From: Bacteroidota bacterium
GTDB taxonomy: Bacteria; Bacteroidota; Bacteroidia; CAILMK01; JAAYUY01
Length of the DNA stretch: 46,576 nt
Direction of reading: 5' to 3'
NCBI GenBank assembly: GCA_018698135.1
Contig: JABINZ010000002.1
Span: 1-46,576 of the forward strand
Shown: positions 3,503 to 36,592 of the stretch, piece by piece
Position numbering within the stretch: position 1 is the first letter of the stretch
Layout: the number at the start of each line of letters is the position of its first letter
Translations under genes and position numbers: made by a program
Notes under the pieces: generated by a model
The model's input: the letters and a program-made list of their open reading frames with translations, nothing else
Database searches by the model: none
What the model was told of the DNA's origin: nothing

Positions 3503-4192
3503 TTAATCTGCCTTGATTATTTTCTTTGTAATTATTTGATCGTGCAACTTACAGGAAAGCATATATAATCCTGATGGGAAATGGCTGATATCAATTTGTT
3601 CGTAAGAACCAGATCGGTCGAGAATTAGTTTATTATTAATATCAAAAATTCTTATGTAATCGACTACTGCATGCTCTTCTTGAATGATATAGAGCTTTGA
3701 GCGAACAGGATTTGGATAAAGTTGTATCGATTTCTCATTATTTAACTCTTGTTCAACTCCACTTAAACCATTGAAAGTAATATGAAAGCTTAATAGTGAT
3801 TGATCAAGGCTATCCTTATTATTGATGACCCGATATTGAATGTTTAATCCCCCATCGATGTCATACGACCAAACATGAAATCGAATAAAAGCAGTTGTGT
3901 CATTTTCACCGTATTCGCCTACAAAATTACTTGTTTGAGGCCTGTCGTTCCAGCAATCTCCATTGAAACAGCTATGAACCAACCAACGATTATCTACTGA
4001 ATCGATAACTTTCTCCCATCTGTAATCATCGACTTCATGCGTACCTGTGTGAAACAGAATTTCTGTTTCGAGGTATAAATAATTGAGGCTTGTATTTAAA
4101 TTTAATGTGTTTCCATTTGGAAATGTTAGCTGAGCAATTGAATTAAAACCCACTGAAAATAGTAAAATAGTGATGATAAAATAACTTTTCAT
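3503..4192 (-). CDS. Small T9SS-sorted secreted protein, 229 aa
   Basis: The N-terminal signal peptide (MKSYFIITILLFSVGFNSIAQ) is followed by a middle domain of about 120 residues that I do not recognise. It contains WLVHSCFNGDCWNDRP, where a cysteine pair could form a disulfide, and a beta-rich stretch. The last 70 residues form a T9SS type A sorting domain: LYPNPVRSKLYI, then IRIFDINNK, then FPSGLYMLSCK and a lysine-rich end. The expected fate is export by Sec, then T9SS transport and surface anchoring or release. It is the most distal gene of the run that starts with the beta-helix proteins, but a separate -7 element (4224-4231) suggests its own transcription. Confidence 0.85.
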   Translation of the reverse strand: MKSYFIITILLFSVGFNSIAQLTFPNGNTLNLNTSLNYLYLETEILFHTGTHEVDDYRWEKVIDSVDNRWLVHSCFNGDCWNDRPQTSNFVGEYGENDTTAFIRFHVWSYDIDGGLNIQYRVINNKDSLDQSLLSFHITFNGLSGVEQELNNEKSIQLYPNPVRSKLYIIQEEHAVVDYIRIFDINNKLILDRSGSYEQIDISHFPSGLYMLSCKLHDQIITKKIIKAD

Positions 4193-4223
4193 TAAAGTAA
4201 TTAATTACTAAATTAATTGAAAT

Positions 4224-4231
4224 CAAATATA
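4224..4231 (-). promoter_or_regulatory. Possible -7 element TATATTTG
   Basis: TATATTTG on the minus strand lies 32 bases before the ATG of the small T9SS protein (4192). There is no clear TTTG at the correct upstream spacing, so this is tentative. Confidence 0.35.
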
Positions 4232-4293
4232 AGTCAAAATTATTGAATGGGCTAAGTGAATTCGTTTTAGGATAATTTGAAAATGTATAGAAA

Positions 4294-4725
4294 TTATTTG
4301 GGATCAAGATCAATATCAAGTTTGGCTGTCATATCGCTCCCATATATTGAATCTGATTCAAATGTTACGGGAATGGTTTTATCATAATAACTTCCGTTAT
4401 TTTTTCCATCAACATCAGCTATTTCCATATCATAACTAGATTTAGGATAACTATCAAATGAAATACTGTAATTGCCAAACATATTCGTATAGGCTGTGTC
4501 GTTTTGCATAACTACACGTATTCCCTCTATAGCTTTATTTTTGTCAGATGATTTTATTTTGCCTTTTGCTTCAAACTTAACAATTTGAATAGCTCCATAC
4601 ATTGGCATAATCAAACCATTTGGGTCTGTATCTTTTTCGCACGAACTAAGCAAGCCCATCACCGATAAAATCAATGTTAGCATAGCAGAATAAGATTTTA
4701 CTATTGATTTTTTTAGTAGTTTCAT
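4294..4725 (-). CDS. Lipoprotein of the rSAM/lipoprotein-system type, copy B
   Basis: A 143-residue predicted lipoprotein. The lipobox is GLLSSC, with the lipidated cysteine near residue 29. The mature domain reads FEAKGKIKSS...AIEGIRVVM...YTNMFGNYSISF...MEIADVDGKNNGSYYDK, ending in a DxxLDPK-like tail. This resembles Bacteroides lipoproteins found beside a radical SAM enzyme (the family I recall as TIGR04134). The core looks like a carboxypeptidase-regulatory/Ig-like beta sandwich. It is paralogous to the next gene upstream (shared SFPxxxxY, DxDGxxNG, YGSD/AGSD blocks) and 10 bases from it. No radical SAM gene is visible in the window. It probably sits on the periplasmic face of the inner or outer membrane; its function is unknown. 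Confidence 0.75.
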   Translation of the reverse strand: MKLLKKSIVKSYSAMLTLILSVMGLLSSCEKDTDPNGLIMPMYGAIQIVKFEAKGKIKSSDKNKAIEGIRVVMQNDTAYTNMFGNYSISFDSYPKSSYDMEIADVDGKNNGSYYDKTIPVTFESDSIYGSDMTAKLDIDLDPK

Positions 4726-4735
4726 TTTAACCTTC

Positions 4736-5164
4736 TTATTTTCTGTTTAGCTTGGTATCAACCTGTCTTTCTGTATCAGATCCTGCCCATATACCATCTC
4801 TGAAGGTTGGATTGTCAAATTCAACTAAAGTATCCTTATCCAGATATCTGCCATTAATGGATCCATCAATATCATTGAACTGAATCAGGTAATCATGTTT
4901 TTCTGGAAAACTGTATATTTCTGCTGAGTAATGTCCCAGATGATCTGAGTAGGTTGTGTCCCAATTACTAAAAACAACTTGAATACCTTCAATTGCTTTT
5001 AAACTATCTGAAGAAAGGATTGTGCCTTTGGCAATAAATTTAGCCGATGGGCTTCCATATTCAACCGCTATTGAATTGCATGAGCTACCAATGCCTAAAA
5101 TAGTTAATATCGCAGTTAAAAAAAGACTGTAATTTTTAAGAGCATGTAGTTTTATTTTCTTCAT
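4736..5164 (-). CDS. Lipoprotein of the rSAM/lipoprotein-system type, copy A
   Basis: A 142-residue lipoprotein with lipobox GIGSSC (cysteine near residue 29). The mature part is VEYGSPSAKFIAKGTI...AIEGIQVVF...YSDHLGHYSAEIYSFP...IQFNDIDGSINGRYLDKD, then IWAGSDTERQVDTKLNRK. The YG-P-A-F--KG start and the DIDG--NG block are closest to the Bacteroides rSAM-associated lipoprotein family as I remember it. The ATG overlaps the stop of the 691-aa beta-helix gene by four bases (ATGA), so the two are translationally coupled. That coupling is the best evidence that the lipoproteins work with the T9SS beta-helix proteins rather than with a radical SAM enzyme here. Confidence 0.78.
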   Translation of the reverse strand: MKKIKLHALKNYSLFLTAILTILGIGSSCNSIAVEYGSPSAKFIAKGTILSSDSLKAIEGIQVVFSNWDTTYSDHLGHYSAEIYSFPEKHDYLIQFNDIDGSINGRYLDKDTLVEFDNPTFRDGIWAGSDTERQVDTKLNRK

Positions 5165-7236
5165 TGTTTTATGCTTTTAAATTGTCCCAAAAGAGATTGA
5201 TGATGATATATTTTAAAGATGTAAATACCATTAGGAAGGTTGCTTACATCAATTAAGTTATTATTTTGCTTAATTGTATTTTTCATGACCTCTTTTCCCA
5301 TACTATTATATACCAAAAGCTGATAAGGAGGCAGAAACATAGCTTCATTAATGCTAATGAAAATCGTATTTGAGCTTGGATTTGGGCCATAGCTTATATA
5401 AGCACTTTTATGTTCATCAATTCCAACGCATTGAATGAAATGAATTAAAGAAGTATCGCTTCCTGAACATCCATTGCTGTCAACAACCGTCAAGTAAACC
5501 TGAACATAGCCGGTATCATTTGGTTTTGTGAGCTTGAAAATACTATCCTGACTGTTATCGCTCCATAAATAAGATGGATAATCTGTGGGGCCAGAAATCT
5601 GATAGTTTGTGAATTTATTTAAGCAGAATTGGGTGTCGGCATCCAGTTTAAATTCAGGATTAGCTAGGAATTCTGTATGAATAGTATCGCTGAACCAACA
5701 ACCCTTCTTACTTACCTGAATAATAAATGTGTCTTTTTCGTATTTGTTATTCGAGGCTTTATGATTATAAAAACGATCAGAAGAAAAATCCTGCCAGAGG
5801 TATGCATCAAAAACACCAGCATCCAATATAATGGAATCTGAAGCACAAGCAGATCTATCTGGCCCAATTGAATAGAAAAAACTAGTTGACTCATCAGCTC
5901 CTATATCGGGAGGATTGTTTCGTGTGTCTCCATCAATATCCAAATTCAATGAGCTTATGTAAACGCCTTTCATATTTAAGGAATCACTGAAGGTATGTAA
6001 GTTTGAATCGGTACAAAACTGTGGATAAACCGACAACGAACCACTAGCTTGTTGGCTGACAGTTTTAAGTTCTGTTAAATCCTTGATAAGTGTTCCATCA
6101 AAATCTCCAAGATTTGATCCGTTGAAATAATGGTTGTTATGGTCATTAACCATATTTTGTGCACCAGTCTGTAGAATTGTATAACCATTAGCTGAGTTAG
6201 CAAAAATGTTATTCTTTACAGTGCTGTACTTTCCGAATATATATGAAATACAAGCACTTCCAGTTGCGTAACCGGTGAGATGTACACTGTTGTGATAGAT
6301 GTTAGTGAAATCAGAAGTTGTAATATTTATACCAACACACCAATTGTAGGTATTTTGGTAAATAAAGTTATTGCCAATTATTACCTCATCACCTAATGTT
6401 CCACTCGATTTGAATAATCGTATCCCGAAACTATTAATGCCAATATTAGACAAAGTAATGTTATTGTTTAATATTTTAGTCGAACCTGAGCAATTGTCAA
6501 ATTTCAACCCACAATATCCGCTGGCATTAATTGTATTAATGATTGTATTTCCTTTTACATAAGCCTCTTTGTGATTTTTAAGATAAGATCCTGAAATACT
6601 TTGATTCACAAATACATTGTTCTCAATAAAAGTATTAATATCCGGTAGCTGTCCTCCCTGACACATACTAATTCCTTGCGATCCATTTAAGAATAAACTG
6701 TTCCGAATCATCATGTATTGATTAGAAGCACCATCGAGGCAAGGTGCAGAAACCAATGCATTTCCATCTACTTTCCCAATAAACTGGCAATTTAATAATT
6801 GGATGTTCATGCATCCTCTTCCAAACTCAACTATGCGACCGCTTGTCGTATCTGTGCCAAGGCTTAAATTTCGGAAAACAATATGTCGTGTATTTTCAAA
6901 AGCAACAGTATAAGCAATGCTATCAACAGTGGGTTTGAATGTAATTAATACACTAGAGCTATCTCCATCTGCAGATTCAAAAAAAACAGGACTGTATACT
7001 TCAGCACCCAGAATATAGGGAAAGTATAACTGTTCTTCATAAACACCTGGCGATATCTTAAAGAATACAGTATTAGAAATACCCTTATTAATAATGGCGT
7101 TTACGGCAGCCGACACGCTGGAATAATCTTCTGTGCCTGATTTTCCAATGGTATATGTTCCATATAATTGTGCAAATAAGCCATTGCTGAAGAATAGGGA
7201 AATGATTAGGGCAAAAAGGATATTTTTAAACTTCAT
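5161..7236 (-). CDS. T9SS-secreted parallel beta-helix protein, 691 aa
   Basis: The signal peptide ends at GLFAQ. Residues of about 23-450 form a right-handed parallel beta-helix (pectin-lyase-like) with many Asn-ladder repeats such as IRNSLFLNG, IENNVFVNQ, VKGNTIIN and ILNNNITLS, closing with the frequent DIGADES motif. Then come two short Ig/PKD-like segments (IGPDRSACASDSIILDAG, and NPEFKLDADTQFCLNKF). The last 80 residues are a T9SS sorting domain (YGPNPSSNTIFISI, LPNGIYIFKIY). No catalytic residues for a polysaccharide lyase can be identified, so an adhesin or glycan-binding role is equally possible. Its start lies 2 bases after the stop of the larger paralogue, and its stop overlaps lipoprotein A. 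The N-terminus (AQLYGTYTIG) mirrors that of the upstream gene (AQMNGTYTIG), indicating tandem duplication. Confidence 0.9.
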   Translation of the reverse strand: MKFKNILFALIISLFFSNGLFAQLYGTYTIGKSGTEDYSSVSAAVNAIINKGISNTVFFKISPGVYEEQLYFPYILGAEVYSPVFFESADGDSSSVLITFKPTVDSIAYTVAFENTRHIVFRNLSLGTDTTSGRIVEFGRGCMNIQLLNCQFIGKVDGNALVSAPCLDGASNQYMMIRNSLFLNGSQGISMCQGGQLPDINTFIENNVFVNQSISGSYLKNHKEAYVKGNTIINTINASGYCGLKFDNCSGSTKILNNNITLSNIGINSFGIRLFKSSGTLGDEVIIGNNFIYQNTYNWCVGINITTSDFTNIYHNSVHLTGYATGSACISYIFGKYSTVKNNIFANSANGYTILQTGAQNMVNDHNNHYFNGSNLGDFDGTLIKDLTELKTVSQQASGSLSVYPQFCTDSNLHTFSDSLNMKGVYISSLNLDIDGDTRNNPPDIGADESTSFFYSIGPDRSACASDSIILDAGVFDAYLWQDFSSDRFYNHKASNNKYEKDTFIIQVSKKGCWFSDTIHTEFLANPEFKLDADTQFCLNKFTNYQISGPTDYPSYLWSDNSQDSIFKLTKPNDTGYVQVYLTVVDSNGCSGSDTSLIHFIQCVGIDEHKSAYISYGPNPSSNTIFISINEAMFLPPYQLLVYNSMGKEVMKNTIKQNNNLIDVSNLPNGIYIFKIYHHQSLLGQFKSIKQ

Positions 7237-7238
7237 GT

Positions 7239-10200
7239 TTAGTGAATTAGAACTTTGGTATAATAGAAATTACTTTGGTCTTGAATATGTAAAAAATAAA
7301 CACCCGCTGCGATATTTGTCAGACGTAATTTTACAGTTGTTTCGTTGTATGGAATTTGTATTTTTTTGAAAATATGAATTTTACCATTTAGATCAAGCAA
7401 GCTAATACCAATTTCACCTGCAGATAAATTGACTGGTAAATATAAATGAATCCACTCCTGAGCGGGATTTGGATAAACGGTCAAATTATTTTCAAAGTGT
7501 GCATTAGGAATTGATAAACAGCTGTCTAAGCCAACACGTATTGTATCGTAATTAGTACATGTATTTAGTGAAACTTCAATCCAAATACCGATACTGTCAG
7601 CAGGGATATTACTGCTATCAATTGTTATTGAAGAAGAAGTATCGCCAGTACTCCACAACCAGGAATCAACATTTGGATTTGCATAAAGCTGAATAGACTG
7701 GTTTATACATATGCTGGTGTCATTCCCTAAATCAATGATTGGTAATTCTTTTGCCTGAATTTCAATGGTATCGAAGTTGGAACAATTATTTGAATCGGTT
7801 CCCATTAGCCAAATGCTGGAGTTATTATTTATCTGAACAACTGTTTGTGCAGAACTATCTCCATTACTCCATATATAGTTTAAATTTCCGTTTGCATTTA
7901 AATTGATAGGTTGATTCTTACAGATTGCGGTATCATTGCCTGCAAAAACATAGGGCAAACTGTATACTTCCAATTTTAAACTATCCGAAGAAGAACATCC
8001 TGAGGCATTGAAAACCTGAACGGAAATAAACTGTGATATACTGGCAGTGAAATCAATTGTTTTTGAGCTATCTCCTGTTATCCAAACGTATTGGATGCCT
8101 CCAAAAGCAGACAGTGAAATCTTTTCAGCTAAGCAACAGAATGTATCTGATCCGGCTTCTGCATAAGGTAATTGAAGAGCTGAAATAAAAACGCTATCGG
8201 TATTTCTACATCCTTCTGGAGATTGTGACGTCAGAATAAGCATTTGACTTTTGGAACATACAAGCTGAAGAATTTGCGTACTATCTCCTGTGCTCCAATA
8301 AAATGAATTCCCACCTGTTCCAGATAATCGAATGGTATCGTTCAGACATACAGCTGTATCATTGCCTGCAAATGTTGAAGGAATGGGATGAAATCGAAAG
8401 TTAAAAGTATCTCTATTCTTCCAACCGAATGTATCGCTTATGGTTAGCATATAAATACCAGAATCAATCAAAGTTAGCTGGTTTGAATTGCTTAAAGTGT
8501 CATTTTTGTTAATATTTTGCCAGTAATAAAATTGATTTAATTGTGGTGAAATAGTGATAGTAACTGAATCGCCTGCACAGGCAACAGTATCACGAATATT
8601 TGGGATTTTGGGTAAGTCTGCAACAACTATACTATCTAAATCAAAATAGTTCCTGTTCAAATTTTCTGAGACTATTTTGAATTTTAAATTGAGATAACTA
8701 CCTGAGTATTTGGATACTGGTAATTGAATTTGTCTCATCTCATCTGTAGCAATATGATTGATACTATCCACAATCAGTAGAGTGTCGTAGTTCGATCCAC
8801 AATTGGCAGATGCTAAAATAATGAGCGAATCATATGCGCCAATAGTCATGGCTGCAAACGGATATTCGTTGTGTACGATTCTGTATTGAAATAATAGATT
8901 TGACTTGTCTGAAATCGGGCCAATCTTTCTTTTAAAACTAGCTATCGCAACCGAATCGATTGCCCATATACTATTCGAAAGTGTCCATGAATTAACATTA
9001 TGAGCGCCAGGGTAGGAAACCCACATGTTTTTAGTATTCCAGTTTTTTAGAGAGTCAGCTCCTTCGAAACTTTCAATTATGGGCAATTCAAGTGGATTAA
9101 TGAAAGTAATGGCATATTGAAAAGTGTCATTTTGACGACATATGCTATCTTCATTAAAAGCAGTGTAGAACTTGAAAAAATAATCTCCTTCTGTTTTTGT
9201 GTTAATAAATCCAAGATTGATGGTGTCAGTTGTATTGGCTGCTAAAATGCGATGGAAAGTATCTCTTAAAATGATTTTACCCCAGGGGGCCTGTACCTCT
9301 GCAAAAACAGGAATATGAGTTTGACTAGCATAACCAAAGTTTTTGATGACAGCAACAACTGGACTATTCACTTCTCCGCAATGGGGTTTTATCGGACTTT
9401 GCAATTCTACAACACCCACATCAGACTCTGGTGGTACAAAAATTTGAATATCATCGATAAATACATTATCTCCCTCATTGTAATATTTATCTAATACCTG
9501 ACTGGACGTTTGAAAAGCTATCTTAAATTCATCACCACAAAATGATGACAAATCAAAATAAAGAAGTTCAAAAGTATCCTTATTACTGTTTGGGTTAAAA
9601 TCAGAAATGCCATTCATATCTGATAATTGAATGCTGTCATTGGCCAGAATTCTAAACCAATTCGACTTTAATCCATAGCTGTAGGTCATTCTCATTCGAA
9701 AACATAATCTGAGATATGTTTGGTTTTTTGCATCAATAATACAACTTGTTGCTTGGGTAAAATGTCTCCAGTTATTATGCCAAGCCTGATAAGTATTGGT
9801 AGAATTTCCTCCACCTACCCAACCAATATTTTGTGAACGACCTTGGCTATGCATTCCGAAATTACCCCGATATGCAGCCCTGTTATCAATTGATATGCGA
9901 GCTTCTGATTCATGTGTTAAATTGAAATAATCTGTATAGGATTTTTCAAAATCTTCCATGAATGGAAAACTTTGAATCGGATGTAAATTGTGCATTACAG
10001 CATGAATTAAATTGTTTCTTTCGTTTTGGTCAAATGAATCAATCATACTGATTTCCAAGGTGGAAAATCCATTCTGTGATAAATCAAAAAAAGAAGTAGA
10101 GGTGTAATAGAAAGAATCAAGAGAAATAATGGTATCGGTAATCATTTCTGTAAAACTATCAATTCCGGGAAGTTTGAAATGAACAAATAGCTTAGAACAA

Positions 10201-11717
10201 GATTGTAAGCCCTTGTTGATAATTAAGATTGATACATGCTGACTGTCTGATAAATGGCAGTTGCTATTTTTGTTCGGATACAGAAGTTGAATATCCTGAT
10301 CATTTGATAATGGACTGAATTCATCTGCTCCAATATCAGGTGCAAGTGAGTCTCTGACAGTATTATCAATATCATTAGTTACTAATGCTAATTTAATTCC
10401 CTTGTTATTCAAGTAAATGGAATGAGTATGTAAATCTGATTTTGATATAAAATCAGGATCAAACGAAATAGAGGACTGATCGTATTTTGTATTGGCAATC
10501 CATTCATTTGTCAAGTATAAGCTATCATTATACCGAATACTATGTGAGGATGAGAAGTAGTTATTATAATTCAACTCAATGTTCATTGAATCCCAAGGAT
10601 CGATAATTTCAAGACAAACACCTCCTGCACTATTGACAACATTGTTATTTATGAGTGAGGTAAAGTTACTTATAGGGGATATTAATACAGCCGTACTTAA
10701 ATAGTAATCGCCTGTTAAATGAATGCTGTTGTGAAATGCATTGATATTTTCAGCGAACGCAAGTTGCAAGGCAGCCTGATTATAGTTATATACATTCACC
10801 GAATCGACAGCGTTTACACGAATGAAATTGTTAGCAATCAATGCTTTATTAGTGCTGTCTCCTTTACAATTATCGATGTTAATACCAAAACCACTAAAGC
10901 AAAAAGGAATATTGATTTTGTTTGAGGAAAGCTGAAAATTGCCATGGCATAGGTTTAGAAAAATGCCTGTAAAATAGTCATATCGGTTATTGAAAATGTA
11001 ATTATTGTGAATAATGACATCTTTCTGATTGGAAAGATATATGGCCGAAGAATACTGATTGAGAAAGTAATTGTCTATAATAATAGTTCCTTTTTCATCA
11101 CTCAAATTGCTGCCATGGTAATCCAATGCAACTAATCCATGCTTGAATAAATTGTTTTTGAATAAATTATTATGATCATTTCCATTGTATGCATTGGAGG
11201 AATAAACCAATGCCAAATCCGATGAGAAAGCAATGTTTTTAATAGGCGGAGCACGACCAATAATCTGATTTGAAATAAACTCATTGAAATTGGCCATTGC
11301 TTCAAGTTGGATTACTCGTGCATAAGTTGTTCCTCCACTTGTAATGCTTATGTGTTTGAAAGTTATGAAATCTGCACCTGACAAATGAAGCGTAAAATTC
11401 GCATAACCGCTTGTAGGTGAATGTGTTAAATTAACCGAAGCGGAGTCTTTATCAAAAGATTCAAATGTAATTCTGTTTGCTAATGAGGCTCCTGGGATTT
11501 CATGAATAACTACTTGTTCAGCATACGTGCCAGCTTTCACTTGTATTAATACAGAACCACTAATGCCCTGACTCTCTAATGAATCAATTGCTTCTGAAAA
11601 ACTTGAGAAATTATCTGATAGGGAAGAACCAATTGTGTAAGTACCGTTCATTTGAGCATGAACAGTTAAACCAAAAATTAGCAGAATAATAGATAGTATG
11701 TGTTTGAAAGCTTTGAT
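7239..11717 (-). CDS. Giant T9SS multidomain beta-helix surface protein, non-canonical start
   Basis: The first ATG (11651) gives 1470 residues but lies just after a perfect in-frame signal peptide, KAFKHILSIILLIFGLTVHAQ, encoded at 11714-11652. Between the upstream in-frame TAA (11741-11739) and that peptide there is no ATG, GTG or TTG. The codon in the start position is ATC (11717-11715), with ATT just before it. I extend to 11717, giving about 1492 residues. Domains: beta-helix (about 1-440, ending DIGADEF), CARDB-like (450-560), MAM/jelly-roll-like (565-730), second CARDB-like (735-850), second jelly-roll (860-1020), four or five PKD/Ig-like repeats (AGNDTAVCLNDTIRL, AGNDTAICKNQPINL, LGNDTSICINQSIQL) and a T9SS sorting domain (VYPNPAQEWIHLYL, AAGVYFLHI). 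It is probably a surface adhesin or binding protein; no enzyme motif was found. Confidence 0.85.
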   Translation of the reverse strand: MKAFKHILSIILLIFGLTVHAQMNGTYTIGSSLSDNFSSFSEAIDSLESQGISGSVLIQVKAGTYAEQVVIHEIPGASLANRITFESFDKDSASVNLTHSPTSGYANFTLHLSGADFITFKHISITSGGTTYARVIQLEAMANFNEFISNQIIGRAPPIKNIAFSSDLALVYSSNAYNGNDHNNLFKNNLFKHGLVALDYHGSNLSDEKGTIIIDNYFLNQYSSAIYLSNQKDVIIHNNYIFNNRYDYFTGIFLNLCHGNFQLSSNKINIPFCFSGFGINIDNCKGDSTNKALIANNFIRVNAVDSVNVYNYNQAALQLAFAENINAFHNSIHLTGDYYLSTAVLISPISNFTSLINNNVVNSAGGVCLEIIDPWDSMNIELNYNNYFSSSHSIRYNDSLYLTNEWIANTKYDQSSISFDPDFISKSDLHTHSIYLNNKGIKLALVTNDIDNTVRDSLAPDIGADEFSPLSNDQDIQLLYPNKNSNCHLSDSQHVSILIINKGLQSCSKLFVHFKLPGIDSFTEMITDTIISLDSFYYTSTSFFDLSQNGFSTLEISMIDSFDQNERNNLIHAVMHNLHPIQSFPFMEDFEKSYTDYFNLTHESEARISIDNRAAYRGNFGMHSQGRSQNIGWVGGGNSTNTYQAWHNNWRHFTQATSCIIDAKNQTYLRLCFRMRMTYSYGLKSNWFRILANDSIQLSDMNGISDFNPNSNKDTFELLYFDLSSFCGDEFKIAFQTSSQVLDKYYNEGDNVFIDDIQIFVPPESDVGVVELQSPIKPHCGEVNSPVVAVIKNFGYASQTHIPVFAEVQAPWGKIILRDTFHRILAANTTDTINLGFINTKTEGDYFFKFYTAFNEDSICRQNDTFQYAITFINPLELPIIESFEGADSLKNWNTKNMWVSYPGAHNVNSWTLSNSIWAIDSVAIASFKRKIGPISDKSNLLFQYRIVHNEYPFAAMTIGAYDSLIILASANCGSNYDTLLIVDSINHIATDEMRQIQLPVSKYSGSYLNLKFKIVSENLNRNYFDLDSIVVADLPKIPNIRDTVACAGDSVTITISPQLNQFYYWQNINKNDTLSNSNQLTLIDSGIYMLTISDTFGWKNRDTFNFRFHPIPSTFAGNDTAVCLNDTIRLSGTGGNSFYWSTGDSTQILQLVCSKSQMLILTSQSPEGCRNTDSVFISALQLPYAEAGSDTFCCLAEKISLSAFGGIQYVWITGDSSKTIDFTASISQFISVQVFNASGCSSSDSLKLEVYSLPYVFAGNDTAICKNQPINLNANGNLNYIWSNGDSSAQTVVQINNNSSIWLMGTDSNNCSNFDTIEIQAKELPIIDLGNDTSICINQSIQLYANPNVDSWLWSTGDTSSSITIDSSNIPADSIGIWIEVSLNTCTNYDTIRVGLDSCLSIPNAHFENNLTVYPNPAQEWIHLYLPVNLSAGEIGISLLDLNGKIHIFKKIQIPYNETTVKLRLTNIAAGVYFLHIQDQSNFYYTKVLIH

Positions 11718-11733
11718 AATACAGGGCTTTGCA

Positions 11734-11741
11734 CAAATTTA
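11734..11741 (-). promoter_or_regulatory. -7 element TAAATTTG for the beta-helix/lipoprotein operon
   Basis: TAAATTTG on the minus strand exactly fits TAnnTTTG. Its first bases are the in-frame TAA that closes off any upstream start. Transcription would begin only about 7-10 bases before the ATT/ATC codons, suggesting an almost leaderless mRNA. No TTTG at the -33 position was found. Confidence 0.5.
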
Positions 11742-24085: not shown

Positions 24086-24559
24086 TTATTCCAGAGTATT
24101 TCTTTCTATTATTAAACCAAACTCCATCACATTGGGAAGATAATCCAATGGCATATCATTTTCGATCTGAAAAACATAAGTTCCTAATTCATTAAATTTA
24201 TAGTTTTCTTCAATCAGTACTTCCAAATCACAAATATCTTCAGCACAATCGCTCAAATACTCTTTATTAGGACCGCTAAGCTGTAGGGTATACTTATTAT
24301 CTGTAATTTTTCCAGAAGGAGATGTCATGTGTACATTTACCCGCATGAATTCAAATTGAAAACCATAAACATGTCTCAGTGCCAGGAAAATTTTATGTTC
24401 AGAAATGGTATCTGAAATCTCGGGTTTGAATTTTAATACTTTACTCTTTTGCCAACGGTAATCCTTGAAATCCTTATGATGAGATTCGTAAATCCGATCG
24501 GGGTTACAGGCAAATAAAGTGAATAGTGCAAAAATTGAAATGAGTAGGAATTGTTTCAT
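24086..24559 (-). CDS. gldH: Gliding motility lipoprotein GldH family
   Basis: 157 residues. The lipobox LFAC gives an acylated cysteine at 18. The mature part follows the GldH pattern: a Y-W-K segment (YRWQKSKVLKFKPEISDTIS), FLALRHVYGFQFEFMRVNVH, TSPSGKITDNKYTL and FNELGTYVFQIENDMPLDYL, ending in MEFGLIIER. GldH is an outer membrane lipoprotein needed for gliding in Flavobacterium, but homologues are common in non-gliding Bacteroidetes. No other gld gene lies nearby. It is 43 bases after the VanX-like gene and may share its transcript. Confidence 0.82.
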   Translation of the reverse strand: MKQFLLISIFALFTLFACNPDRIYESHHKDFKDYRWQKSKVLKFKPEISDTISEHKIFLALRHVYGFQFEFMRVNVHMTSPSGKITDNKYTLQLSGPNKEYLSDCAEDICDLEVLIEENYKFNELGTYVFQIENDMPLDYLPNVMEFGLIIERNTLE

Positions 24560-33963: not shown

Positions 33964-34835
33964 TTAGTTGCTTTGATATATGTTTTTGTGATACGCTTAA
34001 AATCCCGTTTTGTTAATTTGCCCATCCCACTTAGCGCATAATACGAATAGCATAAGCGAGTATGCTGCAGGTCAATAATTTGAATGCTTTTATCATAGGA
34101 ATTTGTGTTAACCAAATAGCAATAATCTGATTCATTTGAACTAATGGCTGTTTTAATCCAATTTTTATTTGAAATGATAAAAGGGAATGGATAAACACCC
34201 TTAATTTTCTCTTCACTAAGTTTAGGGGACAACATATCCGGATCAATCAGTAATGTTTTTGTTTTAATGATGTTGACTTTTCTGTTATAGTATTCTGACA
34301 AGTGTTGATTAATACTTAGTTCATTTCCTCTTATCCCATTAATACGCAGAGCATGTAAAGATTTTTGGATAGAACTAACCATTAACTTTAATCGATAAGC
34401 AGCCTGCATTCTGTCTTGTTCCAAACCATAAAAGTCGAATGGAGAGAACGCAACTAAATCGCTGAATTGGTATCTCGAAAGTTTATTTCGACCTCCATTA
34501 ATCAGGCATAAATAATGTCGCGTTTCAATATTTACAGAAATATCATTATTACGGGTAAATTCAAAATTATGTGCTAAGAGGAAAGAAAAAGAATCATTGG
34601 AAATGTATTGCTGGATTTCGTTTTTACTGATGAATTTATAGGGTGTTGTAGTCCATTGTTCTTTGATCGCTTTTACGAATGCTGAATCAAATTCGGTATG
34701 GTTTTGCAGTACAACCAAGGTTGTTGTTTGATGAAAGTTTTTCACTTCCTTGGAATTGCTTGAATTCGGAGAGTATTGGCCATAAACACAATGAGATAGA
34801 ATCAGAAGAAAGCTTATTATTGAGTAGTATTTCAT
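33960..34835 (-). CDS. Secreted hypothetical protein, 291 aa
   Basis: I do not recognise the family. The signal peptide is MKYYSIISFLLILSHCVYGQ, with cleavage near YGQ. The mature part has a recurring alpha/beta pattern: TTLVVLQNHTEFDSAFVKAI, YKFISKNEIQQYIS, SFSFLLAHNFEF, then a helical stretch (DRMQAAYRLKLMVSSIQKSL) and a basic C-terminus (GKLTKRDFKRITKTYIKATK). It has no T9SS domain, so it should be periplasmic. It overlaps the M28 peptidase stop by one base and the LOG start by four, indicating a tight three-gene operon. Confidence 0.72.
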   Translation of the reverse strand: MKYYSIISFLLILSHCVYGQYSPNSSNSKEVKNFHQTTTLVVLQNHTEFDSAFVKAIKEQWTTTPYKFISKNEIQQYISNDSFSFLLAHNFEFTRNNDISVNIETRHYLCLINGGRNKLSRYQFSDLVAFSPFDFYGLEQDRMQAAYRLKLMVSSIQKSLHALRINGIRGNELSINQHLSEYYNRKVNIIKTKTLLIDPDMLSPKLSEEKIKGVYPFPFIISNKNWIKTAISSNESDYCYLVNTNSYDKSIQIIDLQHTRLCYSYYALSGMGKLTKRDFKRITKTYIKATK

Positions 34836-36592
34836 TATAATACAATCATTTTGAGTGTTTGACTAATTTGATTTCCTATCACCACAGAGTAGGTATACAG
34901 ACCTTTAAATTCTCCATTATTAGTGAAAATATACGTATTGATTCCGCCATGTAATTGAATCCTTTCAGTAAATACAATTTTCCCAGTTATATCTCGAATG
35001 ACAATAGAGGCGTTTTTATTTTCAATTTTTGGTTCTGCAATGATTTTAATTTTGCTTGTTTTGAAGAATGGATTTGGACTATTTTGTAACAATGAAAAGG
35101 TCTGTTCATGATACTCTTTTAGCGACACTTTGTATTCGAATGAAAATTCTTCGGAAAACAAACTTGATATTCCATTTTCAACATTTGCAACACTAAAAAA
35201 ATATGTTTTGCCAGCATCCAGTTTATTAATATGAATTTTTGAATTTCCAGTAAAAGACATGACCGTATCAAAATATAAAGTGCCTGATCCTTTTGATCGA
35301 ATTCCAACACGGTAGTTTTTAAACAAGCTATCCTTATCTTTCATTAAAATATCAATACCTGTCCATACAGGTATGAATTCAGGATTTGGCACAAGAGGAG
35401 AGTTTGCAATTAAACCTACATTTATGCCATTCGATAGTGCATTTCTTCTCAAGTAATTCAGGTTAACAAAAAAACTATCAATACTTCCATCTGGTGGTTG
35501 GGTTGTATCAACTCCAATTATATCAGTAGATGTATGAGTCCTGTCAGGCAAAATACCTTTCCCATTTCCATGCTCATTGGCAGCACAATAACGTATAGCA
35601 GCATAACCTTTTTTTCGAAAAGGAATATGATCACCACCTCTTCCTGTACGATCTTCCATAATCATTAAATTAATAATTAAGGGGTACAAAAGCTTGGGAT
35701 TTATTTTTTCTTCCTGATTCATTTTAATATATCGAGCCAACTGTTTGTGTGATGAATTTCGAAATGAATCGTTTATTTGAGAATAGGAGAAAATACGAAC
35801 ATGAGTGCTGTCGGTATGTCCTGCATAAGGGCATGAAGGTAGCGAAGATGTATATCCACAATAAATTCCTCCAACAACATCATTGTTAAAAACAGCTTTA
35901 ACCAGCAAAGCCTTGTCGGCACAATATTGAGCAAATGCAGTAGCACCATGTAAGCCCTGATCTTCACCAGTTGTTGTCGTAAAAACAATGGTTTTATTGA
36001 AAGCATACTTACTCATGACACGAGCAAGTTCCATAACCAAAACGGTTCCCGATCCATTATCATCCATGCCTGGTGTATAACAAGTAGTATCGCAACCACC
36101 TTCACAACGGGTATCAAAATGCCCTTCTACTATCAAAATCTCATCACTTGTTGGATCAAGTCCGGGTAGTACTGCCATAACATTTTTATGACTCCCCATA
36201 CCACAAACCGATTTGTTAAAGTCAAGATAGGAAGTGATCAGTCTGTTTTCATTTTGTTCACTGAATTGTTGAAATTTAGCATAAATCCATCTTCTACAAG
36301 CTCCTATTCCTGTATTGTTTGAATGTGTATCTGAGGCCGTATTTCTATTGTAAAAAGATTCCAATTTTCGCAGATAACTGAATAATGAATCGTTTGAAAT
36401 CTCATTAATAAGTCCATTAATCAGCGAGTCTTGATTTTTAATGAATAGAGTAGGCTGATAATCCCCTCTGTTGTAGTTGCCTGTTAAAATGTTTTCAACA
36501 AGCTGATTGCTGACTTGAATGTTTGTTTGCGCAAAGTTGAATTGCGGAATAAATGCAAAAACTATGAACAGCAACTTAAATTGAGGATTCAT
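34835..36592 (-). CDS. T9SS-secreted M28-family metallopeptidase
   Basis: 585 residues, signal peptide to FNFAQ. The M28 catalytic set is readable: H158 and D160 in GHFDT, D178 in MDDNGSG, E210-D211 in TGEDQGLHG (Asp replaces the more usual second Glu), D238 in NNDVVGG and a late His in GGDHIPF. Extra cysteines (CEGGCDTTCYTP) sit next to the metal site and may form disulfides. Residues of about 385-490 form a fibronectin-III-like segment. The last 80 form a T9SS sorting domain (LQNSPNPFFKTSKIKI, GLYTYSVVIG). It should act as an extracellular aminopeptidase or carboxypeptidase. It heads the operon with the hypothetical and LOG genes and has its own promoter. Confidence 0.93.
   Translation of the reverse strand: MNPQFKLLFIVFAFIPQFNFAQTNIQVSNQLVENILTGNYNRGDYQPTLFIKNQDSLINGLINEISNDSLFSYLRKLESFYNRNTASDTHSNNTGIGACRRWIYAKFQQFSEQNENRLITSYLDFNKSVCGMGSHKNVMAVLPGLDPTSDEILIVEGHFDTRCEGGCDTTCYTPGMDDNGSGTVLVMELARVMSKYAFNKTIVFTTTTGEDQGLHGATAFAQYCADKALLVKAVFNNDVVGGIYCGYTSSLPSCPYAGHTDSTHVRIFSYSQINDSFRNSSHKQLARYIKMNQEEKINPKLLYPLIINLMIMEDRTGRGGDHIPFRKKGYAAIRYCAANEHGNGKGILPDRTHTSTDIIGVDTTQPPDGSIDSFFVNLNYLRRNALSNGINVGLIANSPLVPNPEFIPVWTGIDILMKDKDSLFKNYRVGIRSKGSGTLYFDTVMSFTGNSKIHINKLDAGKTYFFSVANVENGISSLFSEEFSFEYKVSLKEYHEQTFSLLQNSPNPFFKTSKIKIIAEPKIENKNASIVIRDITGKIVFTERIQLHGGINTYIFTNNGEFKGLYTYSVVIGNQISQTLKMIVL

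Follow-up and report, generated by a model that had tools for sequence, protein, structure and literature searches.

Two lipoproteins of a radical SAM-associated family in a T9SS surface-protein operon of a Bacteroidota bacterium, and a YGxP tag common to candidate substrates of the enzyme

The closest described system to the locus reported here is a pair of NCBIfam families, TIGR04133 for radical SAM/SPASM enzymes and TIGR04134 (lipo_with_rSAM) for lipoproteins that are usually encoded adjacent to such an enzyme. No paper naming either family was found in the literature searched, most subscription papers being outside its coverage. The nearest published idea is that of the DAG-RiPPs, e.g. DybA, which are RiPP-lipoprotein hybrids modified by an MNIO and lipidated via the lipoprotein pathway (Chen et al. 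2025; PMC12636315). The likeness is that a motif-bearing peptide or protein on varied scaffolds is modified in the cytosol and then lipidated, the modification being a proposal in our case. However, DAG-RiPPs depend on an MNIO and a C-terminal CPxCGxG motif, which is absent from both lipoproteins of this study, whereas a radical SAM/SPASM family and a YGxP motif are concerned here; the comparison is one of mechanism and carries no claim of membership. Neither "radical" nor "type IX" occurs in the text of that paper. The present locus is an unusual setting for members of a known family; the tag and the T9SS route described below are additions of this work, for which no prior description was found.

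The window, i.e. the whole stretch of 46,576 nucleotides that was analyzed, carries on its minus strand, in the order of transcription, two genes for T9SS cargo proteins (bhelix1 and bhelix2, homologous with 33% identity), two lipoprotein genes (lipoA and lipoB) and the gene of a small T9SS protein (Table 1). There is a 2-base gap between bhelix1 and bhelix2, a 4-base ATGA overlap between bhelix2 and lipoA, a 10-base gap between lipoA and lipoB and a 101-base gap before the last gene, which bears out the order and spacing given in an earlier note on this DNA; the close packing of the first four genes argues for a shared transcript. Scans for promoters and terminators did not rise above shuffled sequences, i.e. 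the chance level, and Rfam gave no match. The sorting domain Por_Secre_tail lies above its cut-off in bhelix1, bhelix2 and the small T9SS protein, and the translocon protein SprA is encoded in the genome (2497 bits); neither lipoprotein has a T9SS sorting domain as judged by TIGR04183 and PF18962. By HMM the beta-helix label is the weaker one, since bhelix1 falls short of the PF13229 cut-off of 25.9 bits and bhelix2 has no beta-helix match in the HMM search. The signal peptide (IIKAFKHILSIILLIFGLTVHAQ) of bhelix1 is encoded ahead of the first ATG, the frame reading on to about 11720, and positions 11651-11741 of the window hold no in-frame ATG, GTG or TTG before that ATG; the true start is probably a rare codon (ATT) near 11720, or else the sequence contains a base error. 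A gliding lipoprotein, GldH (PF14109, 74 bits), is encoded elsewhere in the window at 24086-24559.

Table 1. Features of the locus, with positions in the window.
Feature	Position	Strand	Evidence
bhelix1, T9SS type A cargo, 1470 aa from first ATG	7239..11651	-	TIGR04183 42.3 bits; PF13229 20.3 bits (below cut-off)
bhelix2, T9SS type A cargo, 691 aa	5161..7236	-	TIGR04183 38.9 bits; orthologues in three same-family relatives
Lipoprotein A (lipoA): LGI-motif signal peptide, lipid Cys29, YGSP at 36-39, transthyretin-like domain	4736..5164	-	TIGR04134 69.3 bits; AlphaFold2; fold matches
YGSP motif of lipoA, residues 36-39, proposed recognition or modification site	5048..5059	-	family conservation; YGxP enrichment beside enzyme
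Lipoprotein B (lipoB), tandem paralogue of lipoA, degenerate motif MYGAIQ (proline lost)	4294..4725	-	TIGR04134 62.5 bits
Small T9SS type A protein, 229 aa, ancestral bhelix2 neighbour, without YGxP	3503..4192	-	TIGR04183 40.6 bits; 57% orthologue adjoining bhelix2 in G001

Both lipoproteins score above the curated TIGR04134 cut-off of 39.8 bits, and their assignment to the radical-SAM-associated family, suggested in the earlier note, is upheld by the profile; they are members by profile only, as the adjacent TIGR04133 enzyme of the usual neighborhood is missing. They are paralogues with 46.7% identity. LipoA has the lipid cysteine and the YGSP motif and, with EYGSPSAKFIAKGTI, fits the consensus [EM]YG[TSV]PxAx[YF] in full; lipoB keeps the lipobox cysteine and, with MYGAIQIVKFEAKGKI, has lost the motif proline. 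In the AlphaFold2 model of lipoA (pLDDT 90.3), a signal helix is followed by a linker with YGSP (block 31-40, pLDDT 66) and a beta-sandwich (strands 41-139). Foldseek related the model to carboxypeptidase D transthyretin-like domains, which are among its best matches, and to teneurins (E from 2e-4 to 7e-4); with TM-scores by query of 0.41-0.45 against 5aq0 and 1qmu, both carboxypeptidase D transthyretin-like domains, the likeness to transthyretin-like/CarboxypepD_reg domains is one of fold and assigns no function; a PDB search with the lipoA sequence gave no match. The lipoprotein tree is poorly resolved, and places lipoA and lipoB in a starred set of four together with a Marinifilum and a long-branched Fermentibacterota lipoprotein.

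The earlier note described the operon as one without a radical SAM enzyme, which holds for the window but not for the genome. One clear TIGR04133 enzyme (526.5 bits, cut-off 425) is encoded on another contig, C266, far from lipoA and lipoB; it has a CX3CX2C motif and C-terminal cysteines. Its gene overlaps that of a lipoprotein of its own, distinct from lipoA and lipoB, with the lipobox context EACYGVP and a TIGR04134 score of 34.3 bits, i.e. below the cut-off. LipoA, lipoB and the enzyme score in the families of the described pair, with which the lipid cysteine, YGxP and the transthyretin-like domain are shared; the differences are that lipoA and lipoB belong to a T9SS surface-protein operon at a distance from the enzyme, and that the lipoprotein on C266 stays below the cut-off. 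The closest solved relatives of the enzyme by sequence are SkfB (6efn), cytosylglucuronate decarboxylase, BtrN, 5v1q and PqqE (6c8v), of which SkfB, 5v1q and PqqE are radical SAM/SPASM peptide maturases; the similarity is weak (best E 7e-11), and these relatives are too distant for a reaction to be named or transferred.

In 80 loci around enzyme relatives, proteins of less than 330 residues from runs of genes that precede the enzyme in the same direction were set against those elsewhere in the same loci. Of 167 such proteins in the enzyme-led runs, 97 contain YGxP, compared with 12 of 588 controls, and an LG[FILY] motif is found in the signal peptide in 51 of 78 cases against 7 of 146 rough controls, both counts being descriptive because they come from related, not independent, sequences. 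Shifted or substituted variants such as FGxP, YAxP and GYxP show no comparable enrichment. By an automatic walk, 63 of 79 loci score for YGxP; inspection of 15 misses showed that four (L070, L073, L125 and L131) do hold a YGxP protein which the walk had dropped, and that five more (L061, L087, L096, L100 and L116) hold a YG variant. The consensus of the tag is [EM]YG[TSV]PxAx[YF]x[IV]KGxV, with YGxP just after the lipid cysteine. Among 59 aligned lipoproteins with 24% mean identity, G24 in the signal peptide, C29, Y36, G37, P39, G47 and D98 are at least 90% conserved and G77 is invariant; since most of these rows were picked for holding YGxP, its conservation there is partly by selection and the independent test is given by the YGxP counts against controls above. 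In three loci (L066:7455-7970, L071:7458-7964 and L073), transthyretin-like lipoproteins upstream of the enzyme have a second, C-terminal YGxP (e.g. MYGVPSTEY). Pattern searches of DNA for AQYGxP proteins found none in the source genome and mostly chance matches in other genomes, those after a signal peptide being already known. A YGTY near the N-terminus of bhelix2 was rejected as a motif, as the same place reads QMNGTYTIG in bhelix1 and QLHGTYTIG in bhelix2 of the genus-mate G001.

Three scaffolds carry the tag, namely transthyretin-like lipoproteins, lipoproteins of about 50-110 residues, and signal-peptide proteins that are not lipidated. The small lipoproteins upstream of the enzyme have YGxP near the C-terminus (L055, L057, L059 and L060); together with those of L061, this group, mostly of 50-115 residues and with YGxP or a YG variant close to the C-terminus, resembles lipidated peptide precursors. 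Moreover, proteins with a YG motif and a T9SS sorting tail occur in six genomes and lie directly beside the enzyme in three, one of which is a Fibrobacter. Both profiles, TIGR04134 and TIGR04183, are passed by the 286-residue L169 (46.7 and 34.5 bits), of which L170 is a near copy; the corresponding scores are 39.8 and 51.8 for L171 (306 aa, YGVW) and 39.2 and 41.4 for L176 (261 aa), which adjoins an enzyme gene. In the same-family relative G003, a protein with AQYGAP scores 42.3 bits with TIGR04183 (L028:3170-3682), the enzyme operon there (L028:2562-3682) consisting of this T9SS-tailed protein, an ACYGTP lipoprotein, an 80-aa LYGPP lipoprotein and then the enzyme. Outside Bacteroidota, a Fibrobacter MAG (L116:7237-9083) encodes a 250-aa YGMG protein with 30.0 bits for TIGR04183 (cut-off 23), whose gene overlaps the start of the enzyme gene (520.8 bits). 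TIGR04133 relatives were also seen on MAG contigs recorded under the names Spirochaetes, Kapaibacterium, Fibrobacteres and Sabulitectum (L063, L100, L110 and L119), where binning errors are possible. As judged from these proteins, the T9SS link is real and runs through the motif, not through beta-helix neighbors. The earlier note had proposed a second, T9SS-related role of the lipoprotein family, and this part of its interpretation gains from the TIGR04134-type proteins with T9SS tails and from the T9SS-tailed proteins beside the enzyme in three genomes, though not in the form of dedicated partners of beta-helix proteins.

Regarding the neighborhood in relatives, the genus-mate G001 (92% complete) shares the release factor gene (91% identity) on one side and the DUF1684, TetR, efflux and ABC genes on the other. 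Between them it has the small T9SS protein (57%) and bhelix2 (about 60.5-61% over the full length), 137 bases apart with no lipoproteins between, and bhelix1 and RlpA are absent between bhelix2 and DUF1684. At the site equivalent to C266, where the source genome has the enzyme and its lipoprotein, an ankyrin gene of G001 lies 7 bases from an M28 peptidase gene with nothing between; both empty sites have intact flanks. In this single comparison, compatible with either gain or loss, the source genome has the enzyme-lipoprotein pair as well as lipoA/lipoB, G001 has neither, and bhelix2 stays; co-absence with bhelix2 retained indicates that the occurrence of the lipoproteins follows that of the enzyme and not that of the beta-helix genes. 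In the relative G002 the bhelix1-bhelix2 pair is retained (~35% identity) and the 410 bases left before its contig ends hold no lipoprotein, and in G003 bhelix2 lies 18 bases from the release factor gene, again with no lipoproteins there; G003 has the enzyme, adjoining the same M28 gene as in C266. By tblastn no remnants of lipoA or lipoB were found at the bhelix2 loci of these three relatives, and the family profile found no YGxP lipoprotein in G001 or G002. TIGR04134 matches below cut-off in the relatives fall mostly within long open frames, which is what CarboxypepD_reg-type domains would give. The sensitive family profile yielded further weak matches in each of the four genomes, of which the small ones that were looked at (L228, L231, L229 and L244) were set aside as CarbopepD_reg-type without YGxP. 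Another M28 peptidase, at 34835-36592 of the window, is ~33% identical over 116-123 residues to the enzyme-adjacent ones of C266 and G003.

At the level of the class, TIGR04133 was found in 3 of 295 genomes and TIGR04134 above cut-off in 2, both among those 3, a co-occurrence that rests on three enzyme-bearing genomes; the third is G003, whose adjacent lipoproteins are divergent. In a set of 40 genomes selected because they encode the enzyme, TIGR04134 exceeds its cut-off in 31, with lipoprotein copies on contigs away from the enzyme in several. Cultured commensals with the enzyme-lipoprotein pair include Parabacteroides goldsteinii and P. gordonii (L091 and L111). On the whole, we consider it rather likely that lipoA and lipoB are substrates served in trans by the TIGR04133 enzyme of C266, which ride with surface-protein genes.

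The placement of the two genes may nevertheless be accidental, the arrangement being found in one genome only. That they came by a chance insertion behind a conserved operon, are co-expressed with it and have no functional relation to it is a serious possibility, and one compatible with substrates modified in trans: the insertion falls exactly between genes that are neighbors in G001, but two paralogues have been kept open at 46.7% identity, with tight translational spacing behind bhelix2. It is unlikely that lipoA and lipoB, as paralogues that have decayed or been put to another use, are no longer modified and act as plain transthyretin-like lipoproteins; the lost proline of lipoB would agree with this, and modification may indeed be missing in that protein, but lipoA fits the consensus and the enzyme is retained in the genome. 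Somewhat less credit still is due to the proposal that they serve the T9SS beta-helix proteins as dedicated partners in the periplasm or outer membrane, with no dependence on a radical SAM enzyme. The tight operon spacing with its ATGA overlap and the presence of T9SS speak for such partners, but the beta-helix orthologues of G001, G002 and G003 lack the lipoproteins (with the contig of G002 ending 410 bases downstream), the enzyme is encoded in the genome, and at the lipoprotein loci away from the enzyme that were inspected in other genomes the operon includes neither a beta-helix gene nor another T9SS gene. The recurrence of the pairing, by which the earlier note would have its proposal judged, is not seen; its observation is confirmed and its interpretation is supported in part. 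Finally, a BSAP-5i-type immunity role of lipoB, prompted by a weak NF053773 match (E = 0.0081), is highly improbable, as the match has 16.2 bits against a cut-off of 150 and no MACPF-type toxin was recognised among the neighboring window proteins scanned.

If lipoA and lipoB are substrates in trans, as we favor, each preprotein would be made with a Sec/lipoprotein signal peptide bearing an LG[FILY]-type motif, and the cytosolic enzyme would recognise the region of this motif, YGxP, or both. From the motif and the co-occurrence we infer that the YGxP segment would be modified before export, this order of steps, the site and whatever chemistry is involved being parts of the proposal. The protein would then be exported and lipidated on Cys29, and its transthyretin-like domain would be displayed on a short modified linker as a tether. 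Being placed behind a conserved T9SS surface-protein operon, the pair would be made together with those proteins, beside which any role of the lipoproteins is conjectural, and in other genomes the same motif is carried by T9SS-exported scaffolds. A broader and more tentative reading, to which we give somewhat less than an even chance, is that TIGR04133 enzymes are general maturases of protein surfaces, which put one modification on the YGxP tag of unrelated exported scaffolds (transthyretin-like proteins with a lipid anchor, lipopeptides of 50-110 residues and proteins secreted by T9SS) and serve substrates scattered over the genome in trans. If true, proteins decorated by radical SAM chemistry would reach the surface of Bacteroidota cells via two export routes. 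The common tag, the candidate substrates including T9SS-secreted ones, and the presence or absence at the level of the genus make the enzyme-lipoprotein pair a directly testable system of surface-protein modification.
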